Assembly (NCBI GenBank): GCA_028277025.1
Contig: JAPYVG010000001.1
Span: 118,713-182,712 of the forward strand
DNA: 64,000 nt
DNA from: Sulfolobaceae archaeon
GTDB taxonomy: Archaea > Thermoproteota > Thermoprotei_A > Sulfolobales > Sulfolobaceae
Direction of reading: 5' to 3'
The position numbers were made by a program, and so were the translations under genes. Of this stretch, positions 20,869-29,649 are shown piece after piece (the first letter of the stretch is position 1; every line of letters begins with the position of its first letter). The notes under the pieces were generated by a model. That model was not told the origin of the DNA and made no database searches. It saw only the letters and a list, made by a program, of their open reading frames with translations.

Positions 20869-20976
20869 AGCCTTCCACTATCACTTGACTCTTTTAAGTA
20901 GTAATTTACTTGGCTAAGTAAAAAATACCGGGGTAATCTCCAATAGTTTTTTATTCTAATTGTGAAAAGTCCTAAT

Positions 20977-21684
20977 ATGGAGTTCAAAAAGGTCGCCGAA
21001 GGTAAGACAAAAATCGTTTACGAATTTGATGATGATCACTATTTACTTTACTTTAAAGACTCAATAACTGCTGGAGATGGAATTAAAAAAGACGAAATGA
21101 AGGATAAAGGAGTTCTGAACGCACAAACTTCAGCCTTCTTCTTTAGGTTACTCGAATCTCAAGGGGTGGAAACGCATTACGTCGGAATGTATGATGAAAG
21201 GACAATGATAGTAAAGAAACTGAAGATGATCCCAGTAGAGGTAGTGTTGAGAAACATAGCAACTGGGAGTATTGTAAAGAGATTGCCTATTAAAGAAGGT
21301 GAGAGATTTAACCCACCAATTATTGAGTTCTTCTTGAAAGACGATGAAAGACATGACCCATTAATAAACTACTCTCATATGGAGTACTTCAAGCTAATGA
21401 GTCGTAAGGAAGCCGAACAGGTTGAAGAGGTGATGAAAAAAGTTAATGACATTATGTATAAGTTTCTTGATGAGAAGGGTTTCCTATTATATGATTTTAA
21501 GCTGGAGTTCGGTAGACTTTATGACGGTAGGTTAATCATAGGTGACGAAATAACTTTAGACGCAATGAGAATCAGGGAGAAAGGTACGTTGAGGATACTC
21601 GATAAGGATCTTTATAGAAAAGGTGCCGATCTAGAAACTGTTAGAAAGAGTTACGAAGAGTTTTTCAAGAGGATAACACAGTAG
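20977..21684 (+). CDS. purC: SAICAR synthetase
   Basis: It joins CAIR and aspartate using ATP. The protein has about 235 residues from ATG 20977 ([17 protein letters not shown]); a GTG at 20962 in the same frame would add five residues. A TATA-like TTTTTTATTC about 20947-20956 lies 25 bases before the ATG, which favours 20977 and a leaderless message. Motifs include [27 protein letters not shown] and [10 protein letters not shown]. It is the first gene of the purine operon purC-S-Q-L-F-F2-D-M. Confidence 0.95.
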
Positions 21685-21692
21685 GTGAGGTT

Positions 21693-21962
21693 ATGATATA
21701 CACAGTTGAACTAATAATATTAAATAAAGACGGTGTAAGAGATCCAGAAGGAGAGACAATACAGAAGTATGCGGTAGAAAAATTTGATAAAAGAGTTTTA
21801 GAGACTAGGGCTGGCAAATACTTACTTTTTAAAGTCGAAACTGCCTCACCAGAGGACGCTGAATTAATTATAAGGAAAATAGCACAAGATGCAAGACTAT
21901 ACAATCCTATAGTTCATAAAATCGTGACAAGGGTGATTAGAGCTGAAGACGGCAGTCATTAA
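21693..21962 (+). CDS. purS: FGAM synthetase subunit PurS
   Basis: An 89-residue protein needed to assemble PurL and PurQ into the FGAM synthetase complex; it has no catalytic residues of its own. The family start is MIYTVELIILNKDGVRDPEGETI. It has a ribosome site GGTGAGG just before the ATG. Its last 20 bases overlap the presumed start of purQ. Position, length and composition are normal, and all three partner genes (purS, purQ, purL) are consecutive. Confidence 0.95.
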   Translation: MIYTVELIILNKDGVRDPEGETIQKYAVEKFDKRVLETRAGKYLLFKVETASPEDAELIIRKIAQDARLYNPIVHKIVTRVIRAEDGSH

Positions 21963-22623
21963 GTTCCCTGGAACCACTTGTGAAATAGACGTTTATAAGG
22001 CTTTACTTGAAGTCGGGGTTGAAAGCGAGATAGTGAAATATAAGGATTTCGACCCAGACAAATATAAAGCCGTAGTTTTGCCAGGCGGTTTTAGCTTTGG
22101 TGACTACCTTAGGGCTGGTAGTATTGCCGCGAGTACTGAGACCATGAAAAAAGTGAAAGAGATGGCTAATGAGGGTAAAGTCGTTATAGGTATCTGTAAT
22201 GGATTTCAAATTTTAGTAGAAAGTGGATTACTTGAAGGTGCTTTATTACCTAATCTCTCATTACGTTTTATAAGTAAATGGGTTTACTTAAAAGTCATAA
22301 GATTTGATACAGTATTGACAAGGGGGTTGAATAAGACTATAATAAGGATGCCTATTGCTCATGCAGAAGGTCGCTATTATCATAAAGACGTTGAGAGGGC
22401 TAAAAGCTTAGCTGTGATGCAATATAGTGATGAAAAAGGGCAAGTAACTCCTCATGCTAACCCTAACGGCTCATTACTAAATATAGCATCAATTGCTAAT
22501 GAGGAAGGAAATGTGATAGGCATGATGCCTCATCCAGAAAGGGCTTCGTTCAAGCTAACTTCAATTGATGGAAGCACAGATGGATTACTATTATTTAGGG
22601 GGTTAAGGAGGCTTGAAAATTAA
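21943..22623 (+). CDS. purQ: FGAM synthetase glutaminase subunit PurQ, CTG start likely
   Basis: It supplies ammonia to PurL. The family N-terminus KTAVIKFPGTTCEIDVYKALL is encoded from 21946, and the only plausible initiator before it is CTG at 21943; the frame has a TGA three codons upstream (21934-21936). The first GTG in frame, 22033, would remove 30 residues including the conserved FPGTTCE strand. Active-site motifs follow: LPGGFSFGDYLRAG, the nucleophile in GICNGFQIL and HPERAS (His-Glu). The gene overlaps purS by 20 bases and purL by 11. About 226 residues is the normal PurQ size. Confidence 0.92.
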   Translation: MKTAVIKFPGTTCEIDVYKALLEVGVESEIVKYKDFDPDKYKAVVLPGGFSFGDYLRAGSIAASTETMKKVKEMANEGKVVIGICNGFQILVESGLLEGALLPNLSLRFISKWVYLKVIRFDTVLTRGLNKTIIRMPIAHAEGRYYHKDVERAKSLAVMQYSDEKGQVTPHANPNGSLLNIASIANEEGNVIGMMPHPERASFKLTSIDGSTDGLLLFRGLRRLEN

Positions 22624-24727
22624 TCTTTCTCAATACGAAATGGACTTAGTGAGGAAGAGTTTAGGCAGAGAACCTAATGAAGCGGAATGGCTTACTATCG
22701 ACGCTTTATGGTCTGAACACTGTGCTTATAAGTCTTCGAGGGTCTTTTTAAAAAGCTTCCTCAGTACTGGGGAAAGAGTTGTTATGGGGATTGAAGATTG
22801 GCAAGATGCGGGTGCATTAGATGTTGGTGACGGATGGGCAATAGTACTAAAGCTAGAAAGTCATAATCACCCATCTGCAATAGACCCATTTAACGGTGCA
22901 GCAACTGGTGTAGGAGGTATAATTAGGGATATAATTAGCAAGGGTGCCAGGCCCATTGCATTACTTGATATGATTCGCGTAGGTGATCTCTCAAAGTCCA
23001 GAAATAGGTGGCTACTAAAGAATATAATTGCTGGAATAGGATTTTACGGTAATAGTATAGGAGTTCCTGTTGTGGGTGGAGAGTTAGCATTTGATAGCAG
23101 TTATGACGATAATCCTTTAGTAGATGTTGCTGGAGTAGGTGTTGTCAGAAAGGACAGAATAATACCTAGTGTGGTTAAAGAGGCTGGATTGAAAATAGTA
23201 ATTGTTGGGCTCACTGGTTTAGACGGTCTTGGAGGGGCTTCATTTGCGTCTAGAAAGTTAAGTGGAGAAGACGAAATAGGGGCAGTACAAATAGCAGACC
23301 CTTTCGCGGGGAAAATTGTGCTTGACTCAACTTTGGCAGTCGTTGATAAGGTCGAGGCCATTAAAGACCTAGGTGGTGGAGGTCTCGTTGTAGGGGTAAC
23401 AGAAATGGCCAATGGTTTAGGGGCTGTTGTTGAGTTAGACAAGATCCCCCTAAGGGTTAAAGACATGAAGCCAGAGGAGATTCTTGTTTCAGAAACCCAA
23501 GAAAGGATGCTATTCGCTGTCAAACCAGAAAAAGTTGAGGAGGTCTGTAAAGAATTTGAGTACTACGAATATCCATGCGCAGTGATAGGTGAGTTTGTCA
23601 AGGAACCATACATAAAATTCTTATACGAAGGGAAGGAGGTCGTCAACTTACCGTCTAGTTTACTCCTAAACCCGCCAAGGTATATTTGGAGTGTCAAAAA
23701 ACCTATAAGGAAAGTGGGAGAAAGGCCTAATATTAATTTAGAAGATGTTATAAGAAAAGTAGTCACTCACCCGGATCTCGTAAGCAAGGAATGGGCTTAT
23801 TCACAATTTGATTATGAAGTTGGAACTTCTACTGTTTTAAAGCCTGGTGAAGCTGACTCTGCATTAATTGAGTTACCTAATGGTAAGCTTCTTGCAATGA
23901 AAGGAGACGCAAACCCAGACCTCTGTGCAGAAGACCCCTACGAATGCGGAAAAAGTATTGTTGCTGAAGCTTATAGGAACTTAGCTAGTGTAGGTGCTAA
24001 GGGGATAGGGCTGGTAGATCATTTACAATTCGGAGACCCAAGGAAGCCAGAGGTTTATTATTATTTTGTCGAAGCTGTTAGAGGGATTGGTGAGGCTGCT
24101 AGGTTCTTCTCAACTCCAATAGTCGGTGGTAAAGTGTCTTTCTATAACGAGAATAAGGAAGGTAAACCCATAAAGCCAACACCTTTAGTCGTTATGGCTG
24201 GTTTAGTTGAGGGAAAATTTTTAAGAAATAAAATATTCGAAGGACTAGACATAGTGCTCATAGGTCTGACGAGGAATGAATTAAGAGGTTCACTTTTAAC
24301 TAAAATATTTGGAAGTTTTGGTGATGTTCCGAAGGCTAGGTTGAATGAGGATTTATTAGCTAGTGAATTAGTTATTCGCGCTATTAATGAGGATAAAGCA
24401 TTTCTGGTTAAGGATGTAAATAGGGGAGGTTTGATAGCTTCTTTGTTCCAAATCTTAATTAAGGACTTTGGTGTTAGCATTAGTACTAAAAATATCATTT
24501 CTGATGAAGAAGATATTCTTGCGAAATTATTCTCCGAAAATGGAGGTCGTTTCATAGTTTTGACCAATGATGCTGAATGGTTCATGAGGAATAGTAAGGG
24601 AATTCATGTTTCTGTAATAGGTAAAGTGGTTAAAGAGAGTAGAAGGATGAGATTAGACGATACCGTAATTGATCTAAATAAGGAGGTTGATCAATATTAC
24701 AATTTCCTTTATGAGGTGATGGGATGA
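22613..24727 (+). CDS. purL: FGAM synthetase large subunit PurL
   Basis: It amidates FGAR to FGAM with ATP and ammonia from PurQ. The protein has 704 residues, the small PurL type that needs PurS and PurQ. The start is TTG 22613 (MKINLSQYEMDLVRKSLGREPNEAEW), inside the purQ end. Motifs include WSEHCAYKSSR, KLESHNHPSAIDPFNGAATGVGG and the second half GDANPDLCAEDPYECGKSIVAEA. It overlaps the purF start by ATGA. Length is typical. Confidence 0.96.
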   Translation: MKINLSQYEMDLVRKSLGREPNEAEWLTIDALWSEHCAYKSSRVFLKSFLSTGERVVMGIEDWQDAGALDVGDGWAIVLKLESHNHPSAIDPFNGAATGVGGIIRDIISKGARPIALLDMIRVGDLSKSRNRWLLKNIIAGIGFYGNSIGVPVVGGELAFDSSYDDNPLVDVAGVGVVRKDRIIPSVVKEAGLKIVIVGLTGLDGLGGASFASRKLSGEDEIGAVQIADPFAGKIVLDSTLAVVDKVEAIKDLGGGGLVVGVTEMANGLGAVVELDKIPLRVKDMKPEEILVSETQERMLFAVKPEKVEEVCKEFEYYEYPCAVIGEFVKEPYIKFLYEGKEVVNLPSSLLLNPPRYIWSVKKPIRKVGERPNINLEDVIRKVVTHPDLVSKEWAYSQFDYEVGTSTVLKPGEADSALIELPNGKLLAMKGDANPDLCAEDPYECGKSIVAEAYRNLASVGAKGIGLVDHLQFGDPRKPEVYYYFVEAVRGIGEAARFFSTPIVGGKVSFYNENKEGKPIKPTPLVVMAGLVEGKFLRNKIFEGLDIVLIGLTRNELRGSLLTKIFGSFGDVPKARLNEDLLASELVIRAINEDKAFLVKDVNRGGLIASLFQILIKDFGVSISTKNIISDEEDILAKLFSENGGRFIVLTNDAEWFMRNSKGIHVSVIGKVVKESRRMRLDDTVIDLNKEVDQYYNFLYEVMG

Positions 24728-26049
24728 AAGAACATTGTGGCATTGTAGGGGTTTCGTTAAGGAGTGAGGACTCATCGAGGTTAGTTTATGAGTCCTTAAA
24801 GTTGTTACAGCATAGAGGTCAAGAAGCTGCTGGGATATCTTATATTAATGATCATAGTATAAATACAATAAAAGGTTTAGGCTTAGTAGAAGAGGCTATA
24901 GACCCGATTTTACTGAAAAGTTCAAGGACCGCTATAGGTCATGTTAGATATTCAACTACGGGCAAAGGAACGGTTGAGGAGGCACAGCCGTTAAGTGATG
25001 GTAAAATAGCGATAGCATTTAACGGTACTATTACAAATTATTTCCTTTATAAGACAAAAACTGATACTGAGTTCATTCTTAAAGTTTTAAGCGACGCAAA
25101 AGATATTAAAAGCGGTCTGAGAAGGCTTGTTGACCTAGCGGATGGTGCTTATTCGTTAGTTATTTTAACTGAGAAGGGTGAGCTAATAGGTTTTAGAGAC
25201 CCTAAAGGTTTTAGACCCTTAGCCTTTGGTAAGATTAAGGACGGATATATAATAGCGTCTGAAGATTCCGTAATTAGGCAACTAGGTGGGGAAGTAATAA
25301 GGGACGTTAAACCTGGTGAGATGATTTATATAAAAGATAATCATGTTGAAAGCGAGATAATTGGCATTGATAAACACTCCTTCTGCTCTTTCGAATACAT
25401 ATATTTTGCCAGAGCAGACTCAATAATTGATGGAATTCCAGTTTACGAGGCTAGGATTAGGTTAGGTGAGGTTTTAGCTGAAAAACATGGCGTTAAAGCT
25501 GATATAGTGATTCCAGTCCCAGAGTCCTCAATACCAATAGCCATAGGTTTTTCAAGGAAATCTGGGATACCACTAGAGCTAGCTTTAGTAAAAACTAATA
25601 TTGCTAAGAGGTCTTTTATTATGCCTACCCAAGATAAGAGGGAAAGCGTAGTGGAGGAGAAGTTTGGTGTTGTAAAAACTGTTGTAAACGGTAAGAGAGT
25701 AGTTTTAATAGATGATTCAATAGTAAGGGGTACTACGATGAAAAAACTGGTGAAGCTTTTGAGAGATAACGGTGCTAAGGAGGTTCATGTCAGGGTTGGG
25801 TCTCCTAAAATAAGATATCCGTGTTATATGGGTATTGATTTCCCAACTACTAAAGAGTTAATAGCTCATTCTAAAAATGAAAATGAAATAGCTAAGATAA
25901 TAGGTGCGGATTCAGTTGAATATTTAACGATAGAAGAGATGATATCTGCAATAGGTAGAAATGATTTATGTCACGCATGTTTTTCTGGTATTTATCCGTT
26001 AAAATTCTCATACGATTTCAATCTGTTAGAGTCAGTGTTTAAGGGGTGA
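24724..26049 (+). CDS. purF: Amidophosphoribosyltransferase PurF
   Basis: It makes phosphoribosylamine from PRPP and glutamine, the first purine step. The protein has 441 residues. MKEH is followed by CGIVGVS, so the N-terminal nucleophile Cys appears after removal of a four-residue propeptide. LLQHRGQEAAG, GHVRYSTTG and the NG of AFNGTITNY complete the glutaminase. The PRPP loop is VVLIDDSIVRGTT near residue 336. Four cysteines (SFCSFEY, YPCYMGID, LCHACFSG) match the structural [4Fe-4S] sites of the Bacillus enzyme. It overlaps purL and is followed after 4 bases by a paralogue. Confidence 0.97.
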   Translation: MKEHCGIVGVSLRSEDSSRLVYESLKLLQHRGQEAAGISYINDHSINTIKGLGLVEEAIDPILLKSSRTAIGHVRYSTTGKGTVEEAQPLSDGKIAIAFNGTITNYFLYKTKTDTEFILKVLSDAKDIKSGLRRLVDLADGAYSLVILTEKGELIGFRDPKGFRPLAFGKIKDGYIIASEDSVIRQLGGEVIRDVKPGEMIYIKDNHVESEIIGIDKHSFCSFEYIYFARADSIIDGIPVYEARIRLGEVLAEKHGVKADIVIPVPESSIPIAIGFSRKSGIPLELALVKTNIAKRSFIMPTQDKRESVVEEKFGVVKTVVNGKRVVLIDDSIVRGTTMKKLVKLLRDNGAKEVHVRVGSPKIRYPCYMGIDFPTTKELIAHSKNENEIAKIIGADSVEYLTIEEMISAIGRNDLCHACFSGIYPLKFSYDFNLLESVFKG

Positions 26050-26053
26050 GATT

Positions 26054-27268
26054 ATGGCTGGAATAATAGGTGTTTATGCATTTGATAAAATATGGAATAT
26101 AACTAAATTCGTATATTACGGTTCTATAGGTTTACAACACAGAGGTTACGCCTATAGCGGTATTACTGTTCTCAGTGATGAAGGTTTTAAGACCGTGGCT
26201 AAGAACGTAGCACCAGAGGATTTAGAATTACCCCAATTTAGCGGATGGGCTGGAATTGGTTACACGGGTACTAGGCCGGGTTTCCCCATAGTGACTGATC
26301 ATGGTAGTTTAGTGTTAGATGGTGTAATTAAAGGTAATATGGATGAGTTTGTAAAAGAGCTAAGTAAAGACGCTGAAAAAGCAGTTAATAACTTTGACGG
26401 CATTTACACGTTTATTTTCTTGTCAAAAGACGGGAGGTTAATAGGTTATAGGGACGAATTTGGGCTAAAACCACTTGAAATAGGAGGGTTTGGTTTTGAT
26501 TTGGCAATATTATCATCAGAAACTCCCGGTATTACAGTAATAGGTGGGGAATTTAAGAGAGAAATTTATCCTGGTGAAATGGTCTTTATAGATACCTATT
26601 CCGTATCTTATTCAAAAGTTAAAGAAGAAAAGAGAAGTTATTGTGCTATTGATATTATATATCAATCTAGAATAGATTCAAGAGTATTCGGTGTAGACAT
26701 TTATAATGTTAGGGAGAAAATTGGAGAACAGTTGGCTGAGGAGAGAAGGATAGACGCGGATATTGTTATAGGAGTTCCAGATACTGCACTTCCCTATGCT
26801 ATAGGTTACTCTAAAAAGACTGGGATTCCGTTTTCTTTAGGTTTTACGAGAACCGGTAGCCCGATGAGGACTATGCTGGCTTCAGATGATTTCCTTAAAA
26901 TTATTGGAGTTCAACTTAAATTAAACCCGATTAGGAGCGTTGTAAAGGGCAAGAGGGTTATTTTAATAGATGACTCCATGGTTACTGGTAGGACTTTGAA
27001 GAATACTGTATTTAATTTGAGGAGTTTAGGTGCTAAAGAAGTCCATGTATTGATTGGGAGTCCTAAATTGATTTCACCTTGTCCTTACGGTATGGAAGTC
27101 CCAGAGGAGAAAGAGTTAATAGCGGCAAATCTTTCCGATGAAGAAATCGCCAAGGTTATAGGTGCTGATTCAATTTATTGGCTAAGTATTGAGGGTTTGT
27201 ATAAGGTTATAGGGCATAAGAACTTATGTTTAGGTTGTATGACTAAAAAGTATCCTAAGGTGATATAA
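26054..27268 (+). CDS. PurF paralogue without the glutaminase nucleophile
   Basis: A 404-residue relative of the preceding PurF. It starts MAGIIGVYAF, so the Cys that PurF exposes is absent (Ala-Gly-Ile), and the NG of the glutaminase is DG (LVLDGVIKG); the Arg-Tyr-Ser region reads GYTGTRPGF. LQHRGYAYSG remains. The PRPP half is well kept: VILIDDSMVTGRT near 306, and the cluster cysteines RSYCAID, SPCPYGME and LCLGCMTKK. It cannot use glutamine, so it may use free ammonia, pair with PurF, or regulate. The start lies 4 bases after the purF stop. A normal neighbouring codon pattern argues against a decaying gene. Confidence 0.9.
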   Translation: MAGIIGVYAFDKIWNITKFVYYGSIGLQHRGYAYSGITVLSDEGFKTVAKNVAPEDLELPQFSGWAGIGYTGTRPGFPIVTDHGSLVLDGVIKGNMDEFVKELSKDAEKAVNNFDGIYTFIFLSKDGRLIGYRDEFGLKPLEIGGFGFDLAILSSETPGITVIGGEFKREIYPGEMVFIDTYSVSYSKVKEEKRSYCAIDIIYQSRIDSRVFGVDIYNVREKIGEQLAEERRIDADIVIGVPDTALPYAIGYSKKTGIPFSLGFTRTGSPMRTMLASDDFLKIIGVQLKLNPIRSVVKGKRVILIDDSMVTGRTLKNTVFNLRSLGAKEVHVLIGSPKLISPCPYGMEVPEEKELIAANLSDEEIAKVIGADSIYWLSIEGLYKVIGHKNLCLGCMTKKYPKVI

Positions 27269-28693
27269 ATGAAGGTCTTATTAATAGGAGATGGTGCTAG
27301 GGAGAACGCCTTAGCTTATTCATTATTAAGGAATTATAGGGTTTTTGCCTTATCTTCGTATATAAACCCTGGGATTAAAGAGGTAGTTGAAAAGACCGGA
27401 GGAAAGTATTATGTAGGAGATATAAACTCACCGGGAGAAGTAAAGAAAGTTATTAGAGAAGTAAACCCGGATTTCGGTATTATAGGGCCAGAAGATCCGC
27501 TATTTCATGGTGTGGCTAATGCCTTTAGGGAGGAAGGAGTTCCGGTTGTGGGGCCGAATAAGGAGTGTGCTATGATCGAGAAGTCAAAGGTCTGGATGAG
27601 AGAGCTAATGTGGAAGTACAATATACCGGGTAGGTTAAGGTTTAAGGCTTTTAGCAATATCGAGGACGCTTCAAAATTCATTCTAGAATACGGTGGTTCA
27701 ATAGCGGTAAAGCCTTCAGAACAAGTAGGAGGTAAAGGTGTTAAGGTGGTTGCAGATTTACAAGCTTATCTGAGTGACGAGAAGAGAGGTGCATTAAGCA
27801 AGAGTACTTCAAGCATAGCGAGTCTTGTGAAAGACGAAGTGAAAATATTAATAGAGGAAAAAGTCGATGGTCCCGAGTACACTCTTCATGTACTAACTGA
27901 TGGTTACTCTTACTTATCGTTGCCATTAGCACAAGATTATAAAAACGCTTATGAAGACGGGATAGGTCCGGAGACCGGTGGTATGGGTTCAATTTCTGGT
28001 CCGGGCAACCTCCTACCCTTTATAAATGAAGAGGAGTACAATAGGTCTTTTGAAATTGTTAAAATGACGGCTGAGGCGATTAGGAAAGAAGTAGGGCAAG
28101 ACTATATAGGGATTTTATCTGGTCAGATGATGTTAACCGGCTTGTGGGGGCCAACAATAATTGAGTACTATTCTAGGTTAGGGGATCCAGAGGCCTCGGC
28201 AATAGTCCCTAGGATAACCAGTGATTTTGGAGAGGTTCTAGAATTAGTTGCGACTAGGCATTTAAATAAGGCTAAAATCTCGGTAAGTGAGTTACCTTCA
28301 ATAGTTAGGGCTGTAGCACCTTTAGGCTATCCGTTAAATAGGGTTATGTCATCGGGACATAATATTTACTTAGATTTACCTAAAATGAGAGAGGAGGGCT
28401 GTATTATATTTTTCGGTTCTGTGAGCTTAGAGGGGATGCAATTAATAACTAAGGGATCTAGAGCTTTAGAAATTGTTGTAGTTGATGAATATGAGAAAGC
28501 GGCGAAGAAATTGGATAAATGTTTCTCTTATATTTCATCAGATACTAAGTTAATTTATAGACGTGATATAGGGAGGACTATAAGTGAACAAGTGGAGAAA
28601 GCTGAAAATGTAAGGTATACATATAAGGCTAGAGAGAAGAGAGGGATTCTCGGGGTTTCAGCTGATTGGTCTCCTAATGGTGGTTTATGGTGA
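27269..28693 (+). CDS. purD: Phosphoribosylamine-glycine ligase
   Basis: It joins phosphoribosylamine with glycine and ATP. This is an ATP-grasp protein of 474 residues: MKVLLIGDGARENALAYSLL at the start, IIGPEDPLFHGV, SIAVKPSEQVGGKGVKVV, EEKVDGPEYTLHVL and ETGGMGSISGPG, with DPEASAIVPR near the acidic metal residues. It follows the PurF paralogue directly, adjacent to it (27268/27269), so the enzyme that consumes the unstable amine is encoded next to those that make it. It overlaps purM by 7 bases. It is slightly longer than the enteric enzyme. Confidence 0.94.
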   Translation: MKVLLIGDGARENALAYSLLRNYRVFALSSYINPGIKEVVEKTGGKYYVGDINSPGEVKKVIREVNPDFGIIGPEDPLFHGVANAFREEGVPVVGPNKECAMIEKSKVWMRELMWKYNIPGRLRFKAFSNIEDASKFILEYGGSIAVKPSEQVGGKGVKVVADLQAYLSDEKRGALSKSTSSIASLVKDEVKILIEEKVDGPEYTLHVLTDGYSYLSLPLAQDYKNAYEDGIGPETGGMGSISGPGNLLPFINEEEYNRSFEIVKMTAEAIRKEVGQDYIGILSGQMMLTGLWGPTIIEYYSRLGDPEASAIVPRITSDFGEVLELVATRHLNKAKISVSELPSIVRAVAPLGYPLNRVMSSGHNIYLDLPKMREEGCIIFFGSVSLEGMQLITKGSRALEIVVVDEYEKAAKKLDKCFSYISSDTKLIYRRDIGRTISEQVEKAENVRYTYKAREKRGILGVSADWSPNGGLW

Positions 28694-29649
28694 GTGAGTA
28701 TAAGAAAGCTGGTGTAGATCTCGATAAGTTAAGGAGTTATCACTCTATGATTTCTAAAGAGCTTTCCTCTCCTTCTCTGTCAATTGGAATTGGTCATTAC
28801 GGTGGGGGTATAAGACTAGGAGATAAACATTTAATAATGCATATTGACGGGGTAGGTACTAAAACTGTTTTAGCATTAAAAACTGGAATTATAGAGCCTA
28901 CTGGTATAGATTGTGTAGCCATGAATGTTAATGATATTGTATGTGTCGGAGCTAAGCCAATAGCTCTAGTTGATTACCTTGCATTAGAAAAGCCTATGGA
29001 CGACGTCGTGCAAAAAGTCATTAAGGGATTGAAGGAAGGAGCTAAGGAGGCTAATGTAGAGATAGTTGGCGGGGAGACCGCGGTGATGCCTGGGGTTATA
29101 ACTGGTTATGATTTATCATGTACTGTTGTTGGCATTGCTGAAAAGCTAAAAACTGGGGAGGATGTTAAACCTGGGGATGTGATTATAGGTTTAGCAAGTA
29201 ATGGTGTTCATGCTAATGGTTATTCGCTTATTAGAAGGTTAATTGATGAGGGTAAGTTAAGCCTTAAGGATTGGGGAGAAGAGTTAATGAAGCCTACTCG
29301 TATCTACTCAAACTCTGTGCTAGAAGTTATCGATAAGATTAAATCTGCTGCCCACATTACAGGGGGTGCTTTTTCTAAACTCCGTAGGATTACTAAATAT
29401 AAAATAGACCTAGAAATGCCTGACCCACCAGATATATTCAAAGCTATTGAAAAAGCTGGTGTTCCTCATGAAGAAATGTATAAAGTATACAATATGGGTA
29501 TAGGCATGATCCTGTTTTTAGATAGAGAATACAAGGATGAAGTTATATCAATTTTACGTAAAAAAGAAATAGTTTATGAGTTAGGAAGAGTAGAAGAAGG
29601 TGAGGGTATCAAAATTACGACTTACAAGAACGTGATTCTCTATGTATAG
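28687..29649 (+). CDS. purM: Phosphoribosylformylglycinamidine cyclo-ligase (AIR synthetase)
   Basis: It closes FGAM to AIR with ATP. The protein has 320 residues, begins MVSEYKKAGVDLDKL, and contains HIDGVGTKTVLAL, VAMNVNDIVCVGAKPIALVDYLALE, IVGGETAVMPGV and VHANGYSLIRR, all PurM signatures. The ATG lies inside the purD end. It is the last gene of the purine operon in this window; a 56-base gap with a T-rich stretch follows. purE, purH and purT-like genes are not here. Confidence 0.96.
   Translation: MVSEYKKAGVDLDKLRSYHSMISKELSSPSLSIGIGHYGGGIRLGDKHLIMHIDGVGTKTVLALKTGIIEPTGIDCVAMNVNDIVCVGAKPIALVDYLALEKPMDDVVQKVIKGLKEGAKEANVEIVGGETAVMPGVITGYDLSCTVVGIAEKLKTGEDVKPGDVIIGLASNGVHANGYSLIRRLIDEGKLSLKDWGEELMKPTRIYSNSVLEVIDKIKSAAHITGGAFSKLRRITKYKIDLEMPDPPDIFKAIEKAGVPHEEMYKVYNMGIGMILFLDREYKDEVISILRKKEIVYELGRVEEGEGIKITTYKNVILYV

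Follow-up and report, generated by a model that had tools for sequence, protein, structure and literature searches.

A paralogue of PurF that lacks the glutaminase nucleophile, PurF', is encoded immediately after an intact purF in the purine operon of a Sulfolobaceae archaeon, and across the archaea its presence follows that of a PurD (GAR synthetase) with an additional C-terminal tail. The association between PurF' and the tailed PurD clade is well supported. We read PurF' as an archaeal PurF paralogue of ancient origin, retained because it serves the tailed PurD as coupling partner for labile phosphoribosylamine (PRA), and would put the probability of this reading at about 0.5.

The purF' locus and its relation to known systems

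The stretch of DNA analysed, hereafter the window, is 64,000 nucleotides long, and the features of its purine locus are collected in Table 1. A preliminary description of this DNA had proposed a tandem PurF paralogue devoid of the catalytic Cys, and this was confirmed, an Ala being found at the Cys position and purF directly before the gene. When compared with the PurF equivalog profile TIGR01134, the window PurF' scored 217 bits over profile positions 127-432 and did not reach the cut-off of 350 bits. The gene order upstream of the window purF is similar in many related loci.

Table 1. Features of the purine locus in the window
Feature	Position	Strand	Remark
purF', PurF paralogue without glutaminase nucleophile, 404 aa	26054..27268	+	
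purF, canonical glutamine PRPP amidotransferase, Cys5 after 4-residue propeptide	24724..26049	+	TIGR01134 414.7 bits, above cut-off
Tailed-type purD (GAR synthetase), 474 aa	27269..28693	+	start codon abuts purF' stop
PurD C-terminal tail, residues 435-474, ending DWSPNGGLW	28571..28690	+	
Ala codon at catalytic Cys1 position of PurF'	26057..26059	+	alignment
Altered PRTase flexible loop of PurF', GFTRTGSPMRTMLASDDFLKIIGVQLKLN	26840..26926	+	alignment
PRPP loop LIDDSMVTGRT of PurF', Thr for Arg371 equivalent	26963..26995	+	
Cys197 of PurF', first of four [4Fe-4S] ligand equivalents (others Cys343, Cys392, Cys395)	26642..26644	+	
Upstream purine operon: purC (20962), purS (21693), purQ, purL (22613)	20962..24727	+	
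purM, 3' of purD	28687..29649	+	

A second, Cys-less PurF located in a gene cluster, and named PurF', was described in each Crenarchaeon studied by Brown et al. (2011, PMC3261824); ammonia use was suggested there for PurF', and the conclusions of the paper state that no biochemical or regulatory reason for the PurF duplication had been established. The window gene shares with these Crenarchaeota proteins the lack of an N-terminal Cys, the pairing with PurF and the location in a purine cluster. It is thus the PurF' already named, and hence the observation itself is not new. The 2011 account, in the part consulted, contains neither a link to PurD, nor a PurD tail, nor a clade-wide occurrence beyond Crenarchaeota. 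The literature searched, most subscription papers being outside its scope, yielded no paper on PurF' other than that of 2011 and none on a PurD tail or PRA channelling. Within that literature, the wide archaeal range of PurF', the apparently stepwise loss of its glutaminase, the correction made below to its PRPP site and the link to the tailed PurD clade are new.

Two neighbouring genes of the window also deserve mention. The partner PurF has lost the Tyr that ends the KNRY motif in its flexible loop (KTNIAKRSF), a Tyr present in 81 of 105 PurF proteins. At 21943-22040, a PurQ-like N-terminus, AVIKFPGTTCE, lies in frame upstream of the GTG listed at 22033, and because no ATG, GTG or TTG was seen upstream of it in the PurQ frame of this stretch, a CTG start of PurQ near 21943 is likely.

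Dismantling of the glutaminase site

Residues were counted in an alignment of 195 proteins, comprising 82 PurF', 105 PurF and 8 others. For Asn101, Asp127, Tyr74, Tyr329 and Arg332 we use what we take to be the E. coli numbering, while the E. coli numbers of Asp366, Asp367 and Ser368 were derived by offset. Arg73 is present in 104 of 105 PurF, the remaining one having X, versus 0/82 PurF', and in the latter Tyr74 is likewise never found, with Thr76 in 2 and Asn101 in 7 of the 82. A true nucleophile Cys occurs in six PurF', which form one small clade made up of the Asgard loci L001, L145 and L199 and the proteins P0086, P0111 and P0113. As the same six proteins also retain Asn101, the pattern suggests that the glutaminase may have been lost in a stepwise manner.

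In L121, L126 and L184 the nucleophile column shows a 'C', but this letter comes from sequence that precedes the likely start and is not a true Cys. Separately, the Asgard PurF' of L001 (6001-7323), L145 and L199 were observed to keep Cys and Asn101-Gly102 and to have lost the Arg73-Tyr74-Thr76 motif, and as such have the form of intermediates.

In the window PurF' the glutaminase half is shortened and Cys, Arg73 and Asn101 are lost; the N-terminal Cys, Arg73 and Thr76 that define class II (Ntn) glutamine amidotransferases were all found to be missing. The preliminary description had allowed that a nucleophile might be provided by another start, but no upstream start of the window PurF' supplies a Cys. 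Set against B. subtilis-type PurF (1ao0, 1gph) and Arabidopsis GPRAT2 (6lbp), the protein is 404 residues long instead of about 460, its glutaminase site is dismantled, its flexible loop is rewritten and Arg371 is replaced by Thr. On the strength of these residues PurF' is predicted no longer to hydrolyse glutamine, its glutamine site having been taken apart.

The phosphoribosyltransferase and cluster sites

Equivalents of Tyr258, Arg332, Lys349, Asp366, Asp367, Ser368 and Thr374 are present in 82/82 PurF'. Among ligand contacts, Tyr258 is given in PMC7056826, and Arg73, Thr76, Gly102, Thr333, Phe334, Arg342, Lys349, Arg371 and Thr374 are given in Table 3 of a simulation paper (PMC7953260). 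While Arg371 is invariant in the 105 PurF, only 50 of the 82 PurF' have Arg at the corresponding position, with Thr found in 30 and Ser in 2, and Phe334 is replaced in every one of the 82 (Ala in 54, Met in 25). The change of Arg371 (lacking in 32/82), together with that of parts of the flexible loop, was located to Thermoproteia-type rows, and both elements are listed among the contacts of the PRPP analogue in the E. coli simulation (PMC7953260). In the window the altered loop overlaps the lowest-confidence blocks of the PurF' AF2 model (residues 261-290). The PRPP site had been described beforehand as intact, and this stood for most of the contacts; it did not stand for Arg371, which is Thr in the window, or for the flexible loop, which is altered. 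PurF' therefore appears, as judged from alignment, to retain most of the pocket in which a 5-phosphoribosyl group, the presumed ligand, is bound.

The four Cys proposed as equivalents of the PurF iron-sulphur ligands (197, 343, 392 and 395) were indeed found in 78, 82, 82 and 82 of the 82 PurF', respectively, and the same four are invariant in a further alignment (A2).

A conserved pocket of this kind could belong to an ammonia-dependent PRA synthase, in which the PRTase domain would combine free NH3 with PRPP and feed PurD. The Asp366-Asp367-Ser368, Thr374, Lys349, Arg332 and Tyr258 equivalents common to all PurF' are in keeping with such an activity, as is the ability of the E. coli enzyme, stated in PMC3261824, to use ammonia when its Cys is missing, and the link to PurD set out below is compatible with it. 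However, the altered Arg371 and flexible loop of the Thermoproteia-type rows and the complete absence of Phe334 argue against a synthase, and among the loci read PurF' was the sole PurF only at a contig edge, in G235, with G253 as a possible second case by coordinates and score. We consider an ammonia-dependent synthase unlikely.

Distribution of PurF' and its co-occurrence with PurF

PurF' forms a single clade of 82 rows, separate from PurF, with a support of 100. According to record titles, this clade takes in Jordarchaeum and Sifarchaeum (Asgard), Bathyarchaeota, Methanomethylicota, Nitrososphaeria and Theionarchaea MAGs, as well as Methanofastidiosa-labelled proteins. To our knowledge, the Theionarchaea and Bathyarchaeota MAGs with PurF' are not those of hyperthermophiles, and therefore heat alone cannot explain PurF'.

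Copies of PurF and PurF' per taxon were counted from coordinates and scores, with part of the loci read, and many of the sampled genomes are fragmentary MAGs. On this basis, 31 of 73 genomes of Sulfolobales (in the GTDB sense) carry the PurF family and 30 of these have two matches, the single-match exception being G422, a genome of 0.9 Mb. The preliminary description had predicted that a kept function would show as Sulfolobales orthologues with the same Cys loss, and such orthologues were found in Sulfolobales genera; PurF-PurF' pairs are present in these 30 of the 31 PurF-bearing genomes. In Thermoproteia, among the matches listed, the family is present in 57 of 147 genomes with two matches in 55; in the remaining two, G680 and G694, PurF' is nevertheless present, as seen from its C-terminal part, immediately ahead of a tailed purD, and this brings the count to 57/57. 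One PurF-family match was seen in 38/43 PurF-bearing genomes of the Nitrososphaeria draw and in 76/83 of those of the Theionarchaea phylum draw, and PurF without PurF' thus looks common outside Sulfolobales and Thermoproteia.

A further Cys-less PurF-like set stands apart from PurF'. It consists of L193-L197 (Asgard genomes G493, G449, G478, G432 and G503) and L230-L232 (Bathyarchaeia genomes G615, G633 and G631), has Gly, Gln or Glu at the Cys position, keeps the four Fe-S Cys and falls outside the PurF' clade, on long branches. In G615 and G633 this protein is the sole PurF-family match at the cut used.

Near-strict co-occurrence with PurF (30/31 Sulfolobales and, among the matches listed, 57/57 Thermoproteia after inspection) would suit a regulatory PurF subunit, whose dead active site binds PRPP or purine nucleotides and sets PurF activity, and a partial distance correlation of 0.40 between PurF' and PurF points the same way. 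In humans, NUDT5, whose own catalysis is not needed, inhibits PPAT with AMP (PMC13421311), and therefore an accessory subunit on a PurF enzyme has a precedent. The resemblance lies in a partner with dispensable catalysis that acts on the PurF enzyme. NUDT5, though, is a Nudix protein with no relationship to PurF and acts as an inhibitor; PurF' is itself a paralogue of PurF and has its link with PurD. Regulation of PurF, however, leaves unexplained why PurF' tracks the type of PurD instead of PurF phylogeny, and we regard it as a rather improbable account of PurF'.

Most PurF' genomes carry a tailed PurD

Comparison of gene neighbourhoods revealed that the PurDs encoded beside purF' are longer, with a tail past the GARS C domain that is mostly 40-58 residues in length and typically reads GS..LL..RIE.AELVR.VYRYR..KGLIGK.IDWIPG.GKIEY, a consensus written by eye. 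The tail of the window PurD is GRTISEQVEKAENVRYTYKAREKRGILGVSADWSPNGGLW; in this protein the Pfam GARS_C domain ends at residue 436 and matches to PDB entries end at 443 of 474. The window PurD has the GARS_N, GARS_A and GARS_C domains of canonical PurD (2yrw, 2yw2, 1gso), and it is in the tail that PurDs of PurF' genomes differ from the canonical enzyme.

The occurrence of the tail was scored in 80 genomes that had been picked for the PurO/PurH test, 45 of them listed with PurF' and 35 without. No PurD match was obtained in five, namely G444, which has PurF', and G470, G019, G610 and G223, which are listed without it; G235 was moved to the PurF' group, as it carries PurF' and a tailed, frameshifted PurD. 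In the 75 genomes with PurD, a tail with the WxP end was present in 41/45 PurF' genomes versus 0/30 others (40/44 versus 0/31 in the first scoring), giving a Fisher p of 6e-17 with kinship ignored. Among the genomes with PurF' and no WxP tail, G103 and G138 have a PurD tail cut to 23-25 residues with the WxP end gone, have purF, purF' and purD dispersed, and group with the Ignicoccus PurF protein P0184; in G421 the tail is shortened to 33 residues, with no WxP. The C-terminus of the G581 PurD is unreadable and was counted as tail-less.

In L217 (579-1850), the locus of G581, the PurD frame passes, ahead of the expected C-terminus, into sequence that looks unrelated, as the result of either misassembly or fusion. 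A search of the protein database with the tail alone gave four matches from 18 candidates, all of them 491-residue PurDs, those with names being from Jordarchaeales and Freyrarchaeum; this search was too insensitive to show that only PurF' organisms have the tail.

PurF' follows the type of PurD rather than that of PurF

With the tails removed, the PurDs of PurF' genomes, G235 included, still form one clade with a support of 100. PurF' status changes twice on this tail-less PurD tree, one of the two changes being the misclassified G235, versus 12 times on the PurF tree (75 rows), where 7 of the changes are forced by well-supported branches. The type of PurF is therefore far less tied to PurF' than is the type of PurD. 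Across 7 independent pairs, tail and PurF' shifted together in 6.8 on average and never in opposite directions, for which a sign test gave a median p of 0.016 (values up to 0.063). In a control on the same loci with the tails left on, the label changed 7 times for PurL, 5 for PurQ, 3 for PurM and once for PurD, with small numbers of PurF'-less rows (14, 9, 6 and 9, respectively).

A similar picture emerged from synteny. Of the 56 testable loci, 52 have purD at most 250 bp downstream of purF', and 50 have purF no further away on the upstream side. In L006, L185, L311 and L312, purF' is separated from purF and is still beside purD, and the sole reverse case is L002, a short contig on which purF and purF' are adjacent and the following 1.6 kb contain no purD match. 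Such proximity raises the question of linkage only, in which the two neighbours would be exchanged together and the tail would have no bearing on PurF'. Exchange of the neighbouring purF' and purD in this manner could in principle yield part of the association, and PurF'-less genomes do possess other PurD types, some of them beside bacterial ones in the tree. However, the association persists where purF' and purD are non-adjacent (G082, L184), the dispersed genes of G103 and G138 still fit at the level of the PurD clade, and the association recurs in several higher taxa, with purL, purQ and purM showing less of it. Linkage as the whole explanation is thus very unlikely.

Partial distance correlations over 45 loci, obtained by a crude method, were 0.49 for PurF'-PurD, 0.40 for PurF'-PurF, -0.29 for PurF'-PurL and 0.13 for PurF-PurD. 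This is the pattern of PurF' as a bridge between PurF and PurD, and it lends weak support to such an arrangement, because PurF-PurL (0.57) and PurD-PurL (0.47), pairs for which we know of no contact, correlate as highly. An AF2 model of a PurF'-PurD read-through fusion (65 rows, five paired) reached a pTM of 0.68, with confidence blocks of 88-95 for the tail helix (fusion residues 843-863) and a pLDDT of 64 for the WxP end; the predicted structure gives no confident docking of the PurD tail.

Selection on PurF' and the remaining alternatives

PurO has an NTN fold without a nucleophile. A nucleophile-less PurF' might by analogy be the missing IMP cyclohydrolase of Crenarchaeota, given that PurO was matched in 0/80 genomes and that purO and purH2 are reported as absent from the Crenarchaea studied (PMC3261824), but PurH or its cyclohydrolase part is found in 12/45 PurF'-listed and 5/35 PurF-only-listed genomes with no complementarity, and PurF' can hardly be this enzyme. 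Since none of the 80 archaeal genomes matched PurO and only 17 matched PurH, whole or in part, most of them are without an IMP cyclohydrolase assignment.

PurF' is under purifying selection. In 12 of 15 genome pairs, those with finite dS in both halves, its dN/dS lay between 0.015 and 0.26, rough values as some dS are about 2 or greater than 2; the ratio is well below 1 in both halves, as the predicted kept function implied. Between the window and G174, PurF' is more conserved than PurF in the PRTase half (identity 0.85 versus 0.77) and less so in the glutaminase half (0.64 versus 0.74), and in 703 comparisons among 38 genomes the mean identities of its two halves, 0.35 and 0.49, are slightly below the 0.39 and 0.53 of PurF. 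Random decay across related genomes, the other outcome that the preliminary description had set against its own proposal, does not agree with purifying selection and a residue pattern that is clade-wide. The loss of Cys, Arg73 and Asn101 and the shortened glutaminase half are what a decaying duplicate would display, but such dN/dS values, in one clade extending from Asgard to Sulfolobales, leave that explanation with practically no standing.

A possible role of PurF' in phosphoribosylamine transfer

The unstable product of PurF has to reach PurD. The need for a PRA hand-off factor has been raised for Aquifex (PMC3261824, citing Bera et al. 2000). A protein that seems to have kept most of the pocket and to have lost the use of glutamine, that is encoded beside PurF and PurD and that is absent where other PurD types are found is, for these reasons, most economically read as having a job that concerns the substrate of PurD.

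PurF' is probably a hetero-oligomeric neighbour of PurF. Formation of a hetero-oligomer with PurF had been among the initial suggestions, next to PRA synthesis from ammonia and PRPP sensing, both of which may hold as well, and a partner role is favoured by the loci read, with their PurF' at a contig edge as the only one without PurF; PurD, which had not been considered, nevertheless looks to be the closer partner. In the coupling role that we prefer, PurF would make PRA from PRPP and glutamine, PurF-bound PurF' would receive or shelter the labile PRA, and PurD, docked via its C-terminal helix and WxP tail, would take it over. PurF' might simply shelter PRA in this role, or might in addition make some of it from free ammonia or respond to nucleotides. 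Physical docking, the identity of the ligand and the transfer of PRA are what we infer here from the association. More tentatively, these parts may make up a PurF-PurF'-PurD assembly for PRA transfer that extends from Asgard to Sulfolobales, in which the repurposed PurF twin would be the coupling subunit and the PurD tail the docking peptide.

For a protein that transfers PRA, a twin of PurF whose occurrence tracks that of a tailed PurD in several phyla of archaea offers a concrete candidate. Through its link to PurD the orphan paralogue gains a testable place in PRA transfer and, if true, the proposal would provide a role for a gene that is annotated in archaeal genomes as a second amidophosphoribosyltransferase.
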